Shown here one piece after another: positions 23,328-32,297 of a stretch of 34,259 nucleotides of DNA; the first letter of the stretch is position 1, and every line of letters begins with the position of its first letter. The position numbers and the translations under genes are program-made. The DNA comes from an uncultured Spirochaetia bacterium. Its GTDB lineage: Bacteria; Spirochaetota; Spirochaetia; JABEVK01. The stretch is taken from contig CALGPJ010000014.1 of assembly GCA_937960645.1 (NCBI GenBank), forward strand, positions 1 to 34,259, in the 5' to 3' direction. A model generated the notes under the pieces. That model saw nothing but the letters and a program-made list of their open reading frames with translations, was not told where the DNA came from and searched no databases.

Positions 23328-23552
23328 ATGCTGAGTACGCATGGTTTGCTGATTGCAGGAATGGGAATGGGAATCGTCTATCTTTTTTTGATAGTGATGA
23401 TTTTGTCCCTGAAGGTCCTGGGTGCGATGACCCGTCACGTCAGAGACGAGGACATCGAGCAAAAGAACAGGTTGGCCGATTCCGCTTCCGATGACATCAC
23501 CAAAATCGCAGCCGCGGCCTGGGCCTATCATCAAAAGGAGAAACGCGAATGA
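23328..23552 (+). CDS. oadG: sodium-pumping decarboxylase gamma subunit (OadG family)
   Basis: Small membrane subunit that holds the decarboxylase complex together. The 74 residues have one N-terminal transmembrane helix (about 7-28, LIAGMGMGIVYLFLIVMILSL) followed by a charged cytoplasmic tail ending in [13 protein letters not shown]; this helix-plus-tail layout and the I-A-A-A motif are typical of OadG. GGGGGG lies 3 to 4 nt before the ATG. The ORF overlaps oadA by 4 nt. The sequence is short, but its position at the head of oadGAB makes the call secure. Confidence 0.9.
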   Translation: MLSTHGLLIAGMGMGIVYLFLIVMILSLKVLGAMTRHVRDEDIEQKNRLADSASDDITKIAAAAWAYHQKEKRE

Positions 23553-25330
23553 AAAAGCACGTCCACACCATGATTACGGCTTTTCGCGACGGATTTCAGA
23601 GCTGCTACGGCGCCCGGGTTCTCACGGACGATTTCATCGCGGCGGTCGGGGCCGTGACCCGCGCGGGGATGACCCACCTGGAGGTGGCCGGCGGCGCCCG
23701 CTTTCAAAGTTTGTACTTTTACTGCAACGAGGATGCCTTCACCATGATGGACCGCATCCGCGAGGCCGCCGGCCCTGAGGCCGAGCTGCAGAGCCTCAGC
23801 CGCGGCGTGAACGTGGTGGCCCTCGACACCCAACCGCGCGACATCATCAAACTTCACGCTGAGCTGTTCAAAAAGCACGGTATCACCACGGTGCGGAATT
23901 TCGACGCGCTCAACGATGTGGACAACCTGGAATACAGCGCCCACTGCCTGAAGGACGCCGGCCTGAAACACGAGGTCGCGATTGCCGTGATGGAGCTGCC
24001 GCCCGGGAAGAGCGGGGCGCACAACGCCGAATTTTACCAGCAAATCCTGAGGCGAATTCTGGACCGAGGACTTCCCTTCGATTCGCTGTGTTTCAAGGAT
24101 GCGACGGGAACCCTGACCCCCAAAACAGCCTACGAGACGGTTCGTGCCGCACGCCATCTGTTGGGAGACGGGGTCAAGATCGTGTTTCACAACCACGAGA
24201 CGGCCGGCATCGGGGCCCTGACGTACCGGGCGGCCCTGGATGCGGGGGCGGATCAGATCGATCTGAGCCTGGCGCCCGTCAGCGGCGGCACCTGTCAAAC
24301 CGATGTGGCCGTGATGTGGCACGCCCTGAGGGGAACCGACTACGATTTGGGACTGGATATCCGCAAGGTGCTCGAGGCCGAACGCATCCTCAAAGAATCC
24401 CTTAAGGACTATTACCTGCCGCCCGAGGCCACACAGGTCGAACCGCTCATCCCGTTCAGCCCCTTGCCCGGTGGGGCCCTGACCGCCAACACCCAGATGT
24501 TGCGGGATAACGGCCTCCTGGACCGTTATCCGGAGGTGATCGCCGCCATGGAGGAGGCCGTGGCGCGGGGGGGCTTCGGCACCAGCGTGACCCCGGTCAG
24601 CCAGTTTTATTTTCAGCAGGCCTTTCTCAACGTGCAGAACGGAGCGTGGAAAAAGATCAGCGAGGGCTACGGCCGGATGATCCTGGGCTACTTTGGCAAG
24701 ACCCCGGTTCCGCCGGACCCCGAACTCGTACGGCTGGCCGCCGAACAGCTGAACCTGCCGCCGACGGACAGGACCGCCCTCGAGCTGGCCGACGCCGACC
24801 CGACCAAGGGCGTCGAGGCGGCCAGGTCCCAGCTGGTCCAAAACGGCCTGGAGACCACCCCGGAAAACATCTTCATCGCGGCCACCTGCAAGGAAAAGGG
24901 AATCCTGTTCCTCCAAGGCAAGGCCAGGGTGAATGTGCGCAAGGTTCGGGCGGCCGCCAGTACCTACATCGTCGAAGCCGGGGGACAGCGCTATCGGGTC
25001 GAGGTGCGTGAGGATGGGGCGGTGGTGGATGGGACCTTCATCTCGGTCCGCCCCACGGGGAACGAGTCGGCCTCCGTTCCCGCCGGGCACACACCGGCGG
25101 CAGAGGGGGCACTCCAATCCCTTCTCGCGCCCCTGCCCGGTCTCGTGGTGCGCTTTCTGAAGAAGCCCGGGGAGGCATTCAAGTCCGGTGAGACCCTTCT
25201 GGTAATCGAGTCCATGAAGGAGGAACACGCCATTCCGGCCCCGGCGGACGGCAGTCTCGAGTCCTGGCTGGTCCACCAGGGGGACCAGGTCCGAAGCGGC
25301 CAGGCACTGGCAGGCTGGAGGGCTCTATGA
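23549..25330 (+). CDS. oadA: oxaloacetate decarboxylase alpha subunit (biotin carboxyl-carrier type)
   Basis: Carboxyltransferase that moves CO2 from oxaloacetate to biotin, the first step of the sodium pump. The 593 residues have a TIM-barrel domain with metal-site residues in AFRDGFQS (about 11-18), the CFKDATG lysine and [16 protein letters not shown] conserved domain follows (about 290-480), then a C-terminal biotinyl domain. The predicted biotinylated lysine is K557 in ESMKEE; the canonical motif is EAMKM, so both flanking positions differ. The RDGFQS/YGARV and ARFQSLYFY variants fit an OadA branch I recall from epsilonproteobacteria and anaerobes. Methylmalonyl-CoA decarboxylase is unlikely given the barrel type. 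Coupled to oadG and oadB by 4-nt overlaps. Confidence 0.93.
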
Positions 25331-26541
25331 ATCTCGATCAAATTGCACGAAAGCTCTGGGAGTCCACCGGTATCTACGGGTTTTTTGTCGACGGAGGATG
25401 GGCCAATCTCCTCATGATCGGGATCAGCCTGGTGCTCATTTACCTGGCCATCAGGAAACAATACGAGCCCCTCCTTCTCCTGCCCATCGGGTTCGGGGGA
25501 CTTCTGGCCAACCTGCCGCTGACCGGCATATTGGCCCACACCGTCTCCGTGGTTGACCCCGAGCTGGGCAGGGTGGTGGTGCAGGAGTACGGCGGCTTCC
25601 TGGGTCAGGTCTTCGATTTTGGCCTGCAGTCGGGCATCTTCCCCATCCTGATCTTCATGGGGGTGGGCGCCATGACCGATTTTGGCCCCCTGATCGCCAA
25701 CCCCATCACCGCCATCCTCGGCGGGGCGGCTCAGCTGGGCATCTTCGGGGCCTTTTTGGGGGCCCTGGCCCTCAACGCCACCGGCCTGGTCTCCTTCACC
25801 ATGGCGGATGCGGCCAGCATCGGCATCATCGGGGGTGCGGACGGACCCACCGCCATTTACCTGACCTCCAAACTCTCCCCCAACCTGTTGGGGGCGGTGG
25901 CGGTGGCCGCTTATAGCTACATGGCTCTGGTGCCCATCATCCAGCCGCCTATCATGAGGCTCCTCACCACCAAAAAAGAGCGCCTGATCCGGATGGAGCA
26001 GCTTCGGCCGGTCAGCAAAACCGAAAAAATCCTTTTCCCGCTTTTGGTCCTCCTCCTGACCGGACTGTTTTTGCCGACCGCCGTTCCGCTGGTGGGGGCC
26101 CTGATGCTCGGCAACCTGGCCCGGGAAAGCGGGGTGGTGCAGCGTCTTTCGGATACCATGCAGCATGCCCTGATCAACATCGTGACCATTCTGTTGGGCC
26201 TTTCGGTGGGGTCCAAGCTTGAGGCCAGCGTCTTCCTCCGAGCGGAGACGTTGGGCGTGATGTTCCTCGGCGTGCTGGCCTTTTCTCTGGGAACGGCGGG
26301 CGGCGTGCTCATGGCCAGGGTGCTCAACCTGTTTCTCCGGAAAAAGATCAACCCGCTCATCGGCTCGGCGGGGGTGTCGGCGGTTCCCATGGCTGCCCGG
26401 GTGTCCAACAAGCTCGGGTTGGAATCCGATCCCGGCAACTACCTGCTGATGCACGCCATGGGGCCCAACGTTTCGGGTGTCATCGGGAGTGCCGTGGCCG
26501 CCGGCGTATTGTTGGTCATGGTGCCACTTTTGGGTGGTTGA
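25327..26541 (+). CDS. oadB: sodium-ion-transporting decarboxylase beta subunit
   Basis: Integral membrane subunit that decarboxylates carboxybiotin and exports sodium ions. The 404-residue polytopic protein has the hallmark [12 protein letters not shown] segment, with D172 in the place of the essential aspartate of the family, and [17 protein letters not shown] just before it. The serine/asparagine-rich stretch [17 protein letters not shown] at about 348-364 matches the second conserved ion-path region. It overlaps oadA by 4 nt and is the last gene of oadGAB. The complex would couple oxaloacetate (or related) decarboxylation to a sodium gradient in a fermenting cell. The TTGACC of the fba promoter overlaps its stop codon. 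Confidence 0.96.
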
Positions 26542-27713: not shown

Positions 27714-27736
27714 CCCGGCTTCTGGCCGGGTTTTTT
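27714..27736. terminator. bidirectional intrinsic terminator after fba and the flavodoxin-like gene
   Basis: CCCGGC (27714-27719), 5-nt loop TTCTG, GCCGGG (27725-27730), then TTTTTT on the plus strand. On the minus strand the same stem is followed by CTGTTTT, so it can also end the flavodoxin-like transcript, whose stop codon lies inside the T-run. Confidence 0.88.
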
Positions 27737-28280
27737 ATTCGAATCCGCCGCGCTGGATTCGAGCGTAATATTCAGCTTTTTGTTCGATTTTTTGCCGAAA
27801 AAGGCCGGCCCAGTCGCGCACCTCATTCCAATCGATAACGTCCAGAGGGGCATCTTTGGGCACTCCAAAAAGAAGGCGGGCAAACCAGGGCAAAGGAGCG
27901 GCCAGGCGCCCGCCAAAGGTATGGGCCAGATCGTGGGGCTGAAGAGCCGGTTGGTTTTTGAAAAAGTCCGCGAGCTGGGCCCGCAGGCGTGGACGGGCGG
28001 TCTTGATGAGGTAAGAGGTCGCCACCAGGCCAACGACCCGGTTGCGGTACTGGTGACGGTGGCTGTGGAAGAAGTCCATGGCCCCCTTGAGCCATTTCAT
28101 CCCCTGGATCGGCGCCGCCAGGATGAGACCCAGGTAGGGCTCGATGTTGATGATCTGATCCAGGGAATGGACGTCGGTGGCAAAACCGGCCTTGACGAAC
28201 TCTTCCTTGAGAAAGAGGGCAACATCCCGGGTGGCGCCATTCACGCTCAGGTAACCGATCAGGATCTTTTTTTCGATCAT
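27735..28280 (-). CDS. flavodoxin-like protein
   Basis: A 181-residue protein with a flavodoxin-type fold: the N-terminal strand and phosphate loop GYLSVNGATRDVA (about 8-20), the middle LGLILAAPIQGMKWLKGAMDFF segment, and VVGLVATSYL. It resembles the flavodoxin family that includes protoporphyrinogen oxidase HemG and other electron carriers. The C-terminal half (about 100-181) is less typical and may bind a partner. I chose the ATG at 28280, which overlaps the stop of the large fusion gene by 4 nt (ATGA); the longer in-frame start at 28367 would lie inside that gene. The coupling suggests it works with the fusion enzyme, perhaps re-oxidising its lipoyl group, which is an inference. Confidence 0.72.
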   Translation of the reverse strand: MIEKKILIGYLSVNGATRDVALFLKEEFVKAGFATDVHSLDQIINIEPYLGLILAAPIQGMKWLKGAMDFFHSHRHQYRNRVVGLVATSYLIKTARPRLRAQLADFFKNQPALQPHDLAHTFGGRLAAPLPWFARLLFGVPKDAPLDVIDWNEVRDWAGLFRQKIEQKAEYYARIQRGGFE

Positions 28281-31200
28281 GGGCGCTCCAGGATGCCGGC
28301 TCCGTAGGTAAAGCCGCCGCCAAAGGCCACCAGCAACAACCGCTCGCCGCTTCTGATTTGGGGCCACACATCTCCCAGGCCGATCGGTATCGTGCAGCTG
28401 GACGTGTTGCCGTTTTCTCGGATGTTACTGAACACCTTCTCGGCTGGGATGCGCAGTTTCTGCCGCACGGCGTTGATGATACGCTGGTTGGCCTGGTGCG
28501 GAATGACCAGGGCGATGTCATCGACCGAGAGCTTGGCCTGGGCCAGCGCTTCCAGGGAAGAGGCCGTCATCCATTTTACCGCTTCCAGATAGACCTTCGG
28601 ACCGTCCATGACGATGAATTCGTTGGGACCGGCGGGAACGCGCAGGGCCGATCCGTCCTCGCCCTGGGCTCCGATGATGGGCCGGCGGAACAAGAAGCCC
28701 TCGGCGGCCTTACCGGGCGCCGCCGGGCCCAGGAGGAGGCTGGCGGTAGAGGCGTCGGCAAAGATGGGGGCCGTGCCAAAATCACTCATGTCCACCCGGG
28801 GACTGAGGATCTCGGTATTGATCAACAGGACCCGTCCTGCGGGATGACTCGCCAGGAAATCGTAGGCCGCCGTGAGGCCGTACAGATAGCCCGAGCACGC
28901 GGAGGACAAATCGTAACACGGCATGGTCAGTTCCCCGTAGCTTTTGGAAAGCTCGTGCTGGATCATGCCCGCCAGGCTGGGACTGAAATGGATGGGGGTT
29001 CCGGTGGCGCAGATCAAAAGGTCGATGTCTCGGGCGGAAAGACCCGTTTGGTCGAGGACGCGCCTGGCCGACTCGACCGAGAGGGTCAGGGCGTTTTCTC
29101 CCTCGGCCACCCATGGGCGGGACTCGATCCCCACCCTCTTGAAAATCTCTTCCTCGCTCCAGCTGGGGCTGAGTTTGGCAAGCTCGGCATTGGTCACCAC
29201 CCGGGAGCCCTTGCGGATGGCGACGGCTTGCAGGAGGGGAAGTCCCTCGGCCCTCAGCAACACCTGCGGGGCGGCGGCCTCCCGCGGTGGCAGCTCAATG
29301 TGGGGCTCGCCCGGCTCTTCGCGGGTCACCGGCTTGATGATGGCCTCTTCTTCTCCTACGCGGACCTGAAGCAGGTTGGCCCCCACGCCAACGGTATCGC
29401 CCTCGCCGACCAGGATTTTTTCCACCACGCCGCTGACGGGGCTGCGAAGGTCGAAGGCCGCCTTGTCGGCTTCCATGTCGGCGATCATTTGGCCCTCCGC
29501 GATGGTGTCGCCTTCCTTGATTTTCCATTGCACCACCGTGATGCTTTCGTCCGAGGGGCTGGACCCGATGGCCGGCACGAAGAATACCCCGGCCTCCGGT
29601 TTGGGCTGGGACTTCCACGTGACGGTCCCGCCCAGCATCTCCACTGCGGTGTCCACGATGCGCTTGTACCCGGGCAGCACCTCGAGCTGGTTACCGTAAT
29701 TGCAGGGGACGAAGGTGTCCTCGCGGACAACCCGCCGCGCCTGAACGGGCCGCGAGGCGTGCTCCAGGACCTCGGCCATGATCTCCGCCCCCATGCCGGC
29801 CGACTTGTTGTCCTCGTGGACCACGATGAGGCGGCCGGTCTTTTCCGCCGATTTGACCACGGCGCTGCGGTCCCAGGGCATCAAACTTCTCAGGTCCAGG
29901 ATTTCGGCCTCCACCCCGGCAGCGGCCAGAATATCGGCCGCCTTGCGGCACAACGAAACCGTGTTGCCGTAGGCCACCAGGGTCAGATCGCGGCCCTCGC
30001 GGACCAGGCGCGCCACACCCAGGGGAACGAAGTGTTTCTCAATATCGGGGGAAGTGGCTTGAGAGGGGTCGTTGAGGCAGTTTTTAGGGTAAAAGAACAG
30101 GGTGGGGCGGCCGCTCTCGAAGGCCGCGTTCAACAGGCCGGCGGCATCCCCAGCGGAGGAGGGCATCATCACGTCCACGCCCGGCGTATGCACGGCCAGG
30201 GCTTCGAAACTGGACGCGTGGAAGGGCCCCAGGCCCGGCCGGTATCCCCCACAGGTGATCATCACGATCACGGGGCATTGCCAGCCTCCGTCGGTCCGCC
30301 AGTACATGCTGGCCAGCTCGCTCACGATCTGGTTGTAGGCGATGGGCAAAAAGTCCGCAAACTGCAGGAAGGCCACGGGCCTCCGGCCGGCCAGGGCCTC
30401 GCCAATGCTGATCCCCACAATACTCGCCTCGGCCAGCGGGGAGTTCTTCACCCGGCCCGGGAAGGCCGTCGAGAGGCCCTTGGTGATGCCGAACACGTCA
30501 CCTTTGGGATCTTCGAGGTCCTCGCCAAAGAGGGTCACCCGCTCATCTCGCTGCAACCGTTTCTTCAGAGTTTCGCGGATGGCCTCGAGCATGGTCAGCT
30601 TGGTCTCCGACTCCTCCAGCCTTCCCCGATACTCCGCGGCCTTGTCGAAAAAGCGCCCCTCCAGGGGCTTGAGGGCGGTGTGCACCGCCCTGGGCTCGGG
30701 GCTTCTCTGCGCTTTTTTGGCCTCTTGACGCAGGTCCTTGCGGATGTCCTCGACTGTCCTGTCGAACCAGTCCTGCCCAACCCCCAGGCCCCGCAGGTAG
30801 TCCTGAATCCGTGGAATCGGATCTCCCGAGGAGCGCACGGCTTCGATTTCCTCGGCCGGGCGGTACACCCGCTGGTCATCGGCGTTGGTGTGGTTGTCCA
30901 GCCGGTCCACGTAGAAAATCAGGATGGCGGGCTTGCGGTCTTGACGCATCCGGGCAACCAATCCCTCGAAGGCTTCGAAAGACAAAAGCGGATCGCGCCC
31001 GTTGACCCGGTGGATGGGGATGCCATGAAACTCGGTGGCCTCTCGGTCCGGCAGGTCATAAAAGGTTTTCCCCTTGGTGATGGTGGAGATGGCAAACTGG
31101 TTGTCCTGGATCAGAAACAGAACGGGTAGGCCCTCCCGCGAGGCGTGGGCAAGGGCCTCCAGGGCCTCGCCCTGCTGGGTCATACCATCGCCCATGCTAC

Positions 31201-31618
31201 ACAGCACGATGGGGCTCCCCAGGTTGTTTTTGACCACGTTGGCAACGCCCACCGCGTGCAGAGCGTTGTTGCCGACCGGGCCCGTGAGGCTCATCACCTT
31301 GAGCTCGGGACTGCTCATGTGGGCGTTCATCTGCCGGCCCCGGCTATGAGACTGATCCTTGTTGAACAGGGCCAGGAAAAATTGTGAAGGGGGGATGCCC
31401 CGCGCAAGCATCAGGGCCTTGTCGCGGTAGTGGACGTGCAGCCAATCCTGCGGACCCAGGAAAAATTGAAGGGCGGCTGCCGACTCGTGCCCCGCACCGC
31501 TGACATGGAAAAACGCCTCGCCCCTCCCGGTATATTCCTGCTCGATTCGGTCCATTTCTCGGGCCTGAGCCATCCACATAAAAAGCTGTTTCGCTTGGTC
31601 AAGGCTGGGTTTACTCAT
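28277..31618 (-). CDS. fusion: 2-oxoacid dehydrogenase E1-alpha/E1-beta, lipoyl domain and beta-ketoacyl-ACP synthase III
   Basis: A 1113-residue multidomain enzyme with no stop or frameshift. Residues 1-300 are E1-alpha (AGHES at 42-46; thiamine-diphosphate motif GDG at 143-145 through N173). Residues 340-665 are E1-beta (GEDLEDPKGDVFG, ANYG-like CNYGNQLEVLPG). Residues 690-755 are a lipoyl domain with the expected lipoylated K719 in EADKAA. Residues 795-1113 are KAS III (FabH type) with the complete triad C908 (SSACSG), H1041 (PHQAN) and N1071 (ENGNTSS). No E2 catalytic motif (HxxxDG), subunit-binding domain or E3 is present. E1-alpha/beta fusions are known; the KAS III addition I do not recall as described. 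Likely product: a 3-oxoacyl-ACP starter from a 2-oxoacid. A leaderless promoter and palindrome lie upstream; the flavodoxin-like gene overlaps its end. Confidence 0.9.
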   Translation of the reverse strand: MSKPSLDQAKQLFMWMAQAREMDRIEQEYTGRGEAFFHVSGAGHESAAALQFFLGPQDWLHVHYRDKALMLARGIPPSQFFLALFNKDQSHSRGRQMNAHMSSPELKVMSLTGPVGNNALHAVGVANVVKNNLGSPIVLCSMGDGMTQQGEALEALAHASREGLPVLFLIQDNQFAISTITKGKTFYDLPDREATEFHGIPIHRVNGRDPLLSFEAFEGLVARMRQDRKPAILIFYVDRLDNHTNADDQRVYRPAEEIEAVRSSGDPIPRIQDYLRGLGVGQDWFDRTVEDIRKDLRQEAKKAQRSPEPRAVHTALKPLEGRFFDKAAEYRGRLEESETKLTMLEAIRETLKKRLQRDERVTLFGEDLEDPKGDVFGITKGLSTAFPGRVKNSPLAEASIVGISIGEALAGRRPVAFLQFADFLPIAYNQIVSELASMYWRTDGGWQCPVIVMITCGGYRPGLGPFHASSFEALAVHTPGVDVMMPSSAGDAAGLLNAAFESGRPTLFFYPKNCLNDPSQATSPDIEKHFVPLGVARLVREGRDLTLVAYGNTVSLCRKAADILAAAGVEAEILDLRSLMPWDRSAVVKSAEKTGRLIVVHEDNKSAGMGAEIMAEVLEHASRPVQARRVVREDTFVPCNYGNQLEVLPGYKRIVDTAVEMLGGTVTWKSQPKPEAGVFFVPAIGSSPSDESITVVQWKIKEGDTIAEGQMIADMEADKAAFDLRSPVSGVVEKILVGEGDTVGVGANLLQVRVGEEEAIIKPVTREEPGEPHIELPPREAAAPQVLLRAEGLPLLQAVAIRKGSRVVTNAELAKLSPSWSEEEIFKRVGIESRPWVAEGENALTLSVESARRVLDQTGLSARDIDLLICATGTPIHFSPSLAGMIQHELSKSYGELTMPCYDLSSACSGYLYGLTAAYDFLASHPAGRVLLINTEILSPRVDMSDFGTAPIFADASTASLLLGPAAPGKAAEGFLFRRPIIGAQGEDGSALRVPAGPNEFIVMDGPKVYLEAVKWMTASSLEALAQAKLSVDDIALVIPHQANQRIINAVRQKLRIPAEKVFSNIRENGNTSSCTIPIGLGDVWPQIRSGERLLLVAFGGGFTYGAGILERP

Positions 31619-31683: not shown

Positions 31684-32262
31684 CTACAGGACGCGTTTGA
31701 TTTCTGCCTTCAAACGGTCCAGGTATTCCTGTAACTGCTGCCGGATATTTTCTGCATTCTGATTGAAAATTTTCAGGAATTCGGGATCCCGCTCCATCAC
31801 GTAATTGGTCGAGACCCCGGCCTGACGTGCCATCTGTTCGGCACGTTGGCGAAGCCTTGGCCCCAGCTGCTGGACGATCGCTTCCCGAAGGTTTTCCAGT
31901 TCGTCCTGGTAGCGTTGGATCACCTGCTGCATCTGATCGAAGAGTTTCGATCCCTCTTTTTTGGTGACCAGCTTGAAAAGGTACGAAGCCTGCTGAATCG
32001 GGAGCGGACCCGAGGCCGAAAGCTGGAAGGGGGCGATGGCCGCCTCGACTGCACCACCGATAAACGAAGCCTGGTCCACCGAGGCGTCTTCGAGACAGGC
32101 GCGCAGCTCCGTCTGTGCCCATTCCTGCGAATTTTCCAGGGCTTTCAATCCAAAAGCCCGACCTTTTTTGAAGCTTTCCTTCCGTTTGAGTTCGTTTTTA
32201 TCGAGCGTAAGCCCCTGGGTCTTTTCGAGCGCGATTTCCCATGCTGACTTGATGGTTCCCAT
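31684..32262 (-). CDS. conserved hypothetical protein, helical
   Basis: A 192-residue soluble protein with no signal peptide or membrane segment. The N-terminus (IKSAWEIALEKTQGL) resembles what I recall of a small spirochaete family of unknown function; I cannot confirm this. The rest is charged and helical, with coiled-coil-like stretches at about 110-140 and 165-190. The ATG at 32262 is chosen because a promoter-like -10 lies 6 nt before it and the family-like start follows; the GTG at 32286 would add 8 residues (MNSDYSRG). It lies between 5-formyl-THF cyclo-ligase, from which a terminator separates it, and the fusion enzyme, 65 nt downstream. No function assigned. Confidence 0.72.
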   Translation of the reverse strand: MGTIKSAWEIALEKTQGLTLDKNELKRKESFKKGRAFGLKALENSQEWAQTELRACLEDASVDQASFIGGAVEAAIAPFQLSASGPLPIQQASYLFKLVTKKEGSKLFDQMQQVIQRYQDELENLREAIVQQLGPRLRQRAEQMARQAGVSTNYVMERDPEFLKIFNQNAENIRQQLQEYLDRLKAEIKRVL

Positions 32263-32268
32263 GCCTCT

Positions 32269-32297
32269 AGAATAATCGGAATTCACGGTCTGATCAA
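32269..32297 (-). promoter_or_regulatory. candidate promoter of the helical hypothetical gene, leaderless type
   Basis: On the minus strand: TTGATC (4 of 6), 17-nt spacer, TATTCT (4 of 6), then 6 nt (AGAGGC) to the ATG at 32262. The AGAGG in the gap is too close (1 nt) to act as a normal ribosome binding site. Confidence 0.48.

Follow-up and report, generated by a model that had tools for sequence, protein, structure and literature searches.

Textbook metabolism takes 2-oxoacids to lipids by way of coenzyme A (CoA): the E2 acyltransferase of a dehydrogenase complex moves the acyl group from the lipoyl arm onto CoA, and the condensing enzyme FabH picks up the acyl-CoA. What, then, is the role of a single protein in which an E1 component dependent on thiamine pyrophosphate (TPP), a lipoyl domain and a FabH-like β-ketoacyl-acyl carrier protein (ACP) synthase III (KAS III) are joined, and in which E2 is missing? 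The question is raised by a gene on contig CALGPJ010000014.1 (assembly GCA_937960645.1) of an uncultured Spirochaetia bacterium, of which we analysed positions 1 to 34,259 (34,259 nucleotides, hereafter the window). We propose, with a probability of roughly 0.6, that this fusion is a single-chain, CoA-independent starter enzyme, in which E1 would acylate the lipoyl arm, the arm would pass the acyl group to C908 of the KAS III part, and condensation with malonyl-ACP would follow, with the E3 component (dihydrolipoyl dehydrogenase) acting in trans. The gene and its parts, all on the minus strand, are as follows.

28277..31618, minus strand: whole fusion gene, E1-alpha/E1-beta/lipoyl/KAS III, 1113 residues (open reading frame (ORF), Pfam, full-length homologues)
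30689..31573, minus strand: E1-alpha, residues 16-310, with TPP-site residues R65, D144, N173 and H243 (Pfam PF00676)
30074..30601, minus strand: pyrimidine-binding part of E1-beta, residues 340-515, with E397, H467 and the motif Q419-F-A-D-F423 (Pfam PF02779)
29684..30019, minus strand: transketolase C domain of E1-beta, residues 534-645 (Pfam PF02780)
29579..29635, minus strand: short E1-lipoyl linker, residues 662-680 (alignment)
29369..29578, minus strand: lipoyl domain, residues 681-750, with lipoyl-lysine K719 within EADKA (Pfam PF00364)
29462..29464, minus strand: codon of K719, the predicted lipoylation site (alignment)
29231..29359, minus strand: flexible lipoyl-KAS linker, residues 754-796 (low-confidence stretches in both structure models; alignment)
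28286..29224, minus strand: KAS III (FabH-like) domain, residues 799-1111, with the triad C908-H1041-N1071 and R1046, the counterpart of the ACP-docking R249 of E. coli (Pfam, NCBIfam, Foldseek)
29147..29149, minus strand: codon of E824, at the position of FabH W32, which stacks on the CoA adenine (alignment)
28778..28780, minus strand: codon of F947, at the position of FabH R151, which also stacks on the CoA adenine (alignment)

The gene starts with ATG and runs through 1113 codons with no internal stop, and the preliminary description of it as one uninterrupted four-module gene was confirmed by the ORF, Pfam, codon composition and homologues. GC content at the three codon positions is 64/44/81% in a window of 60% GC, the pattern of a real coding gene, and a chance frame or assembly chimera is ruled out by full-length homologues of 43-72% identity in dozens of genomes. 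A 923-residue ORF on the plus strand was rejected as a gene, being a shadow of the fusion. Pfam finds, in order, E1_dh (residues 16-310, E-value 1e-39), Transket_pyr (340-515, 3e-24), Transketolase_C (534-645, 7e-29), Biotin_lipoyl (681-750, 5e-17), ACP_syn_III (902-962, 2e-14) and ACP_syn_III_C (1025-1111, 2e-28). Neither the E2 catalytic domain (2-oxoacid_dh, PF00198) nor the peripheral subunit-binding domain, which binds E1 or E3, was detected in the protein by Pfam. An E2 hidden between the lipoyl and KAS III parts was considered and rejected, since that linker has no Pfam match and is only about 43 residues long, close to the 40 or so first estimated. The protein falls below all 25 NCBIfam cut-offs listed, those of E1 and FabH models included; for the KAS III part the scores are 222 versus 292 bits for TIGR00747 (fabH) and 244 versus 249 bits for NF006829 (PRK09352). 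Its best NCBIfam matches are condensing KAS III enzymes, and Foldseek aligns the KAS part with FabH structures at a template modelling (TM) score of about 0.90 (by target length); the structures matched by the E1-beta part are E1-beta subunits of pyruvate and branched-chain 2-oxoacid dehydrogenases.

In the whole-chain AlphaFold model (mean predicted local distance difference test (pLDDT) score 81, predicted TM score 0.64) the E1, lipoyl and KAS parts are folded and the lipoyl-KAS joint is of low confidence. A model of the lipoyl and KAS domains alone (mean pLDDT 88) folds both well and shows no trusted docking between them. The E1-lipoyl linker is nearly constant in length (18-20 residues) and has W668 in every one of 23 aligned fusions; the lipoyl-KAS linker varies across the family from 44 to 102 residues. 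These tether lengths fit a lipoyl arm that would swing between the two. Within the second linker a KPxTxExPGxP motif (residues 761-775; window 29294-29338, minus strand) is conserved in most fusions and may be a docking peptide. As a family diagnostic it was rejected: it seemed universal among an initial 23 sequences, yet of the full set of 47 only 38 have E767. Because E1 (alpha2beta2) and KAS III are each two-fold dimers, a homodimer could satisfy the symmetry of both.

The catalytic residues were surveyed in 47 aligned fusions, which share kinship and are therefore not 47 independent events. R65, N173, H243, E397, H467, K719, C908, H1041, N1071 and R1046 are invariant (47/47), so that K719, C908, H1041 and N1071 are intact well beyond the one protein for which this had been noted; the D144 position holds Asp or Glu. 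In the E1-beta motif, Q419, F420, D422 and F423 are likewise kept in every fusion, and A421 in 44/47. Retention of the Cys-His-Asn triad argues for condensation over plain transfer, and that of R1046 argues that ACP is still a partner.

W32 and R151 of FabH stack on either side of the CoA adenine (PMC4606726). The position of W32 is never Trp and that of R151 never Arg in the 47 fusions, which argues against acyl-CoA as the donor to the KAS III part. Both residues are present in all 27 free KAS III proteins of the fusion-bearing spirochaete genomes, and both are also kept in the aligned FabHs of Aquifex, Bacillus and Neisseria. On the E. coli FabH sequence used as the alignment ruler, W32, R36, C112, R151, H244 and N274 fell as expected. 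Phe87 lines the acyl pocket of E. coli FabH; in an initial alignment of 24 fused domains none has its counterpart, but the stretch is gapped and deserves little weight.

Phylogenetic trees place the fusions together. Each came from a quick search and had a single outgroup row, which makes the root less certain than the clades. In the E1 tree all 27 KAS-fused proteins form one clade (SH-aLRT, an approximate likelihood-ratio support value, 100). The KAS tree likewise unites the 27 fused domains (100), apart from 27 free KAS III proteins of spirochaete genomes. A single loss of the adenine site at the root of this clade, retained since, would explain the pattern in the 47 fusions. The sister of the fusions in the E1 tree (98) consists of six single-chain proteins (L125, L138-L142) with the same E1-alpha, E1-beta and lipoyl order, which differ in that their last domain is E2-like rather than KAS III. 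On a plain reading, one ancestral E1-lipoyl scaffold would have acquired either E2 or KAS III at the same place. The E2-like motif of these six proteins reads DHRPxNG rather than DHRxxDG, with Asn for the catalytic Asp, and their last domain possibly uses an acceptor other than CoA. About 22 further matches from the Verrucomicrobia scan, roughly 1000-1100 residues long, appear to be of the E2-ending type, judging by their length and by how far they match.

Taken as a mechanism, these features suggest the following course. The E1 part would decarboxylate a 2-oxoacid on TPP and reductively acylate the lipoyl moiety carried by K719; the domain bearing it would swing on both linkers to the KAS III part, which would take the acyl group onto C908 and condense it with malonyl-ACP to give 3-oxoacyl-ACP; and the dihydrolipoyl arm would be reoxidised in trans by the dihydrolipoyl dehydrogenase of the genome's pyruvate dehydrogenase (PDH) operon. 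What we infer is the chemistry of every step, together with the direct hand-off, the identity of the substrate and the use of E3 in trans. The architecture, the kept catalytic residues, the loss of the CoA-adenine site and the single clade together support a direct hand-off and are not proof of it. We consider it somewhat better than an even chance that acyl-lipoyl is the direct donor to a Claisen-condensing KAS III on the same chain, and that 2-oxoacids would thereby prime fatty-acid synthesis with no need of CoA or E2, in a family common to spirochaetes, Verrucomicrobia and planctomycetes.

As for the substrate, we consider a branched-chain 2-oxoacid the most likely one. The nearest solved E1-alpha is that of the Thermus thermophilus branched-chain E1 (1um9), followed by human branched-chain 2-oxoacid dehydrogenase (BCKDH), and the QFADF motif of the fusion compares with QFADY in the branched-chain E1s 1um9 and 2bp7 and with QFFGF in Geobacillus PDH. 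Because the nearest E1 structures are branched-chain and the motif agrees with them, we would favour branched-chain 2-oxoacids over pyruvate by about three to one. Pyruvate, which with malonyl-ACP would give acetoacetyl-ACP, is thus a rather unlikely substrate, and would change that point alone: PDH E1-beta models also match the fusion E1-beta, and in E1-alpha the segment GPVGNNALHAVG cannot be clearly assigned to the BCKDH type, but the motif speaks for a branched-chain E1 and the host is already equipped with a full PDH and a free FabH.

The product would probably enter fatty-acid or related lipid synthesis. It might instead start a specialised lipid or polyketide (a signal, a pigment or a stilbene-like compound) rather than bulk membrane fatty acids, a reading on which the distribution of the fusion has a bearing. 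Our figures for that distribution are counts of sampled genomes, some of them incomplete. The preliminary description had called for a look at how far the architecture spreads, and we found it in spirochaete, Verrucomicrobia and Planctomycete-side genomes: the fusion is a broad family recurring in several bacterial phyla and is not host-specific. The fusion or clear pieces of it occur in 26/98 relatives, mostly from the host's class, among them all seven sampled genomes of the host's family. An even draw of the host phylum yielded 14/393 genomes, a fifteenth match (G291) being of the E2-ending type. Among phylum genomes around a Verrucomicrobia locus (L036) 34/338 carry it, 31 of them full-length and one (G856) cut before the KAS part; around a Planctomycetaceae locus (L037) the count is 3/294. 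No full-length copy was found in a search of plasmids. The patchy occurrence across the phylum would suit a specialised product, as would Photorhabdus, in which a branched 3-oxoacyl thioester made by BkdABC goes into a pyrone (PMC4578411). The presence of the fusion throughout the sampled members of the host's family and the lack of a conserved gene cluster around the copies compared make such a product doubtful.

One further occurrence, on a Marinobacter halodurans contig (L034, NZ_SJDL01000060), is likely a contaminant, because the contig has 51.7% GC, against about 60-65% at the genome's other loci, and the E1 part of the spirochaete-type fusion that it carries is nested among those of spirochaetes. 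Another copy (L059:7823-11315, genome G052) is split into three frames by two mid-domain ATGA-type frame changes, and a second copy in that genome (G052:C1:1146697-1148886) is likewise in pieces; in this single-contig genome the breaks reflect either decay or sequencing errors.

The host has strong matches to FlaA, a spirochaete hallmark, and on that ground we regard it as a spirochaete. Away from the fusion it carries an operon of separate E1-alpha, E1-beta, E2 and E3 genes, in which E1-alpha, E1-beta and E3 pass NCBIfam cut-offs for PDH parts or dihydrolipoyl dehydrogenase and the best NCBIfam model for E2, just below its cut-off, is the PDH acetyltransferase. Its free FabH passes the cut-offs for fabH (TIGR00747) and PRK09352 (NF006829). 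Since the host already has a free FabH and a separate PDH, the fusion would be an extra starter enzyme. In one other fusion genome (G053, 93% complete) the single PF08541 match is the fusion itself, which is possibly the sole KAS III there, an assembly gap being as likely.

These host enzymes also allow a route through CoA, in which the cell's free E2, here that of PDH, would move the acyl group from the fusion's lipoyl arm to CoA and the fused KAS III would use the acyl-CoA at close range. Acyl-CoA is the usual substrate of FabH, and a free E2 is available in each fusion genome tested (61/61); we nevertheless think this route in trans quite improbable, because the CoA adenine site is gone from all fusions, the only E2 that PF00198 finds in the host belongs to a PDH-type operon and the fusion lacks any domain known to recruit E2. 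Less probable still, if only slightly, is a KAS III part that serves as a plain acyltransferase from lipoyl to the pantetheine of ACP with no condensation, as proposed for KAS III-like loading enzymes of natural-product pathways: a KAS III-like protein beside transketolase and ACP loading genes in the dnacin and naphthyridinomycin clusters is the proposed ACP loader (PMC7570522), but the condensing triad is complete in every fusion, the best NCBIfam matches are condensing enzymes and a Pfam scan of ten neighbouring genes revealed no ACP.

Several points weigh against the proposed direct hand-off from lipoyl to C908. Loss of the adenine site would be compatible with an acyl-ACP donor as well. 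At about 14 Å, the lipoyl-lysine arm has less reach than the phosphopantetheine arm, to which the FabH tunnel is fitted, and may be short for that tunnel. A fusion genome without a free E2 was sought and none was found among the 61 checked, each having at least one. Conserved neighbours linking the fusion to fatty-acid synthesis were not found, and none are kept beyond the genus. The original claim that the acyl group bypasses both CoA and E2 thus survives in part: it gains from the lost adenine site and from a KAS III domain standing where the sister group has an E2-like one, and it is weakened by the free E2 genes, one of which turned up in the host's own PDH operon when a separate copy was looked for.

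The immediate neighbours of the fusion gene are two.

27735..28280, minus strand: flavodoxin-domain gene, downstream (Pfam PF12724)
31684..32286, minus strand: DUF6657 gene, upstream (Pfam PF20362)

The flavodoxin-domain gene is probably in the same operon as the fusion, because its likely ATG overlaps the fusion stop codon (ATGA). Both neighbours still adjoin the fusion at L042, the locus from the single genome of this genus that was compared for synteny. In part of the Verrucomicrobia set the recurring neighbours are a GAF/PEP-utilising protein, an ammonium transporter, a permease and a Tsx-type channel, which are uninformative on function. Elsewhere in the window (23549-26541, plus strand) lie genes for an oxaloacetate-decarboxylase-like alpha subunit with a biotin domain and a Na+-pump beta subunit, and after them one for a class II fructose-bisphosphate aldolase.

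Known systems share parts of this design. In the Bacillus-type route a branched-chain 2-oxoacid dehydrogenase complex and FabH start branched fatty acids (PMC6461809). This route and the proposed one have in common the E1 chemistry, the use of lipoyl as carrier and a condensation with malonyl-ACP by KAS III; in Bacillus, however, E1, E2, E3 and FabH are separate proteins with an E2-made acyl-CoA intermediate, whereas the fusion chain has no E2 and its KAS III no CoA adenine site. In QncN/QncL/QncM, NapB/NapD/NapC and SclQ1-4, a two-carbon unit reaches ACP through TPP-enzyme components, a lipoyl domain and an acyltransferase of the E2 type (PMC6335953, PMC7570522). There too an acyl group travels onward from TPP-enzyme components by way of lipoyl, but the E2-type acyltransferase and ACP are retained, the donor is a ketose phosphate and the product an acyl-ACP rather than a condensed 3-oxoacyl-ACP, while the fusion has neither an E2 nor an ACP domain. 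Photorhabdus BkdABC is reported to make a 5-methyl-3-oxohexanoyl thioester from branched-chain 2-oxoacid metabolism (PMC4578411, PMC4901931); it comprises three proteins, with a carrier-protein domain in BkdB, and is likened to the fusion here by its description.

Two Streptomyces plasmids (NZ_CP061282, NZ_CP108424) encode a fused E1-alpha/beta that belongs, at 38-39% identity, to the same broader family and adjoins a megasynthase beginning lipoyl-E2-ACP-ketosynthase (KS). In these clusters (L120:11956-26223, with pabB and chorismate mutase genes alongside, and L121:9905-21911) the E1-alpha/beta gene precedes the megasynthase. The megasynthase differs from the fusion in having E2 and ACP between lipoyl and KS, and in using a modular-type KS where the fusion has KAS III; this loading module may also avoid free CoA. 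In none of the Qnc, Nap, Scl, BkdABC and Streptomyces systems is lipoyl joined directly to KAS III. The open-licence literature, to which our search was confined, yielded no published description of the fusion or of transfer from acyl-lipoyl to a ketosynthase.

In conclusion, the fusion is a real and widespread new combination of known enzyme parts, and its CoA-free mechanism is a testable proposal. If that mechanism is correct, it would constitute a new route from 2-oxoacids to lipids in which a condensing enzyme has been swapped in for E2, and lipoyl would become a donor for carbon-carbon bond formation. It would also offer a compact catalyst for engineered branched starter units, and would help to explain branched fatty acids in bacteria without a dedicated branched-chain dehydrogenase complex.

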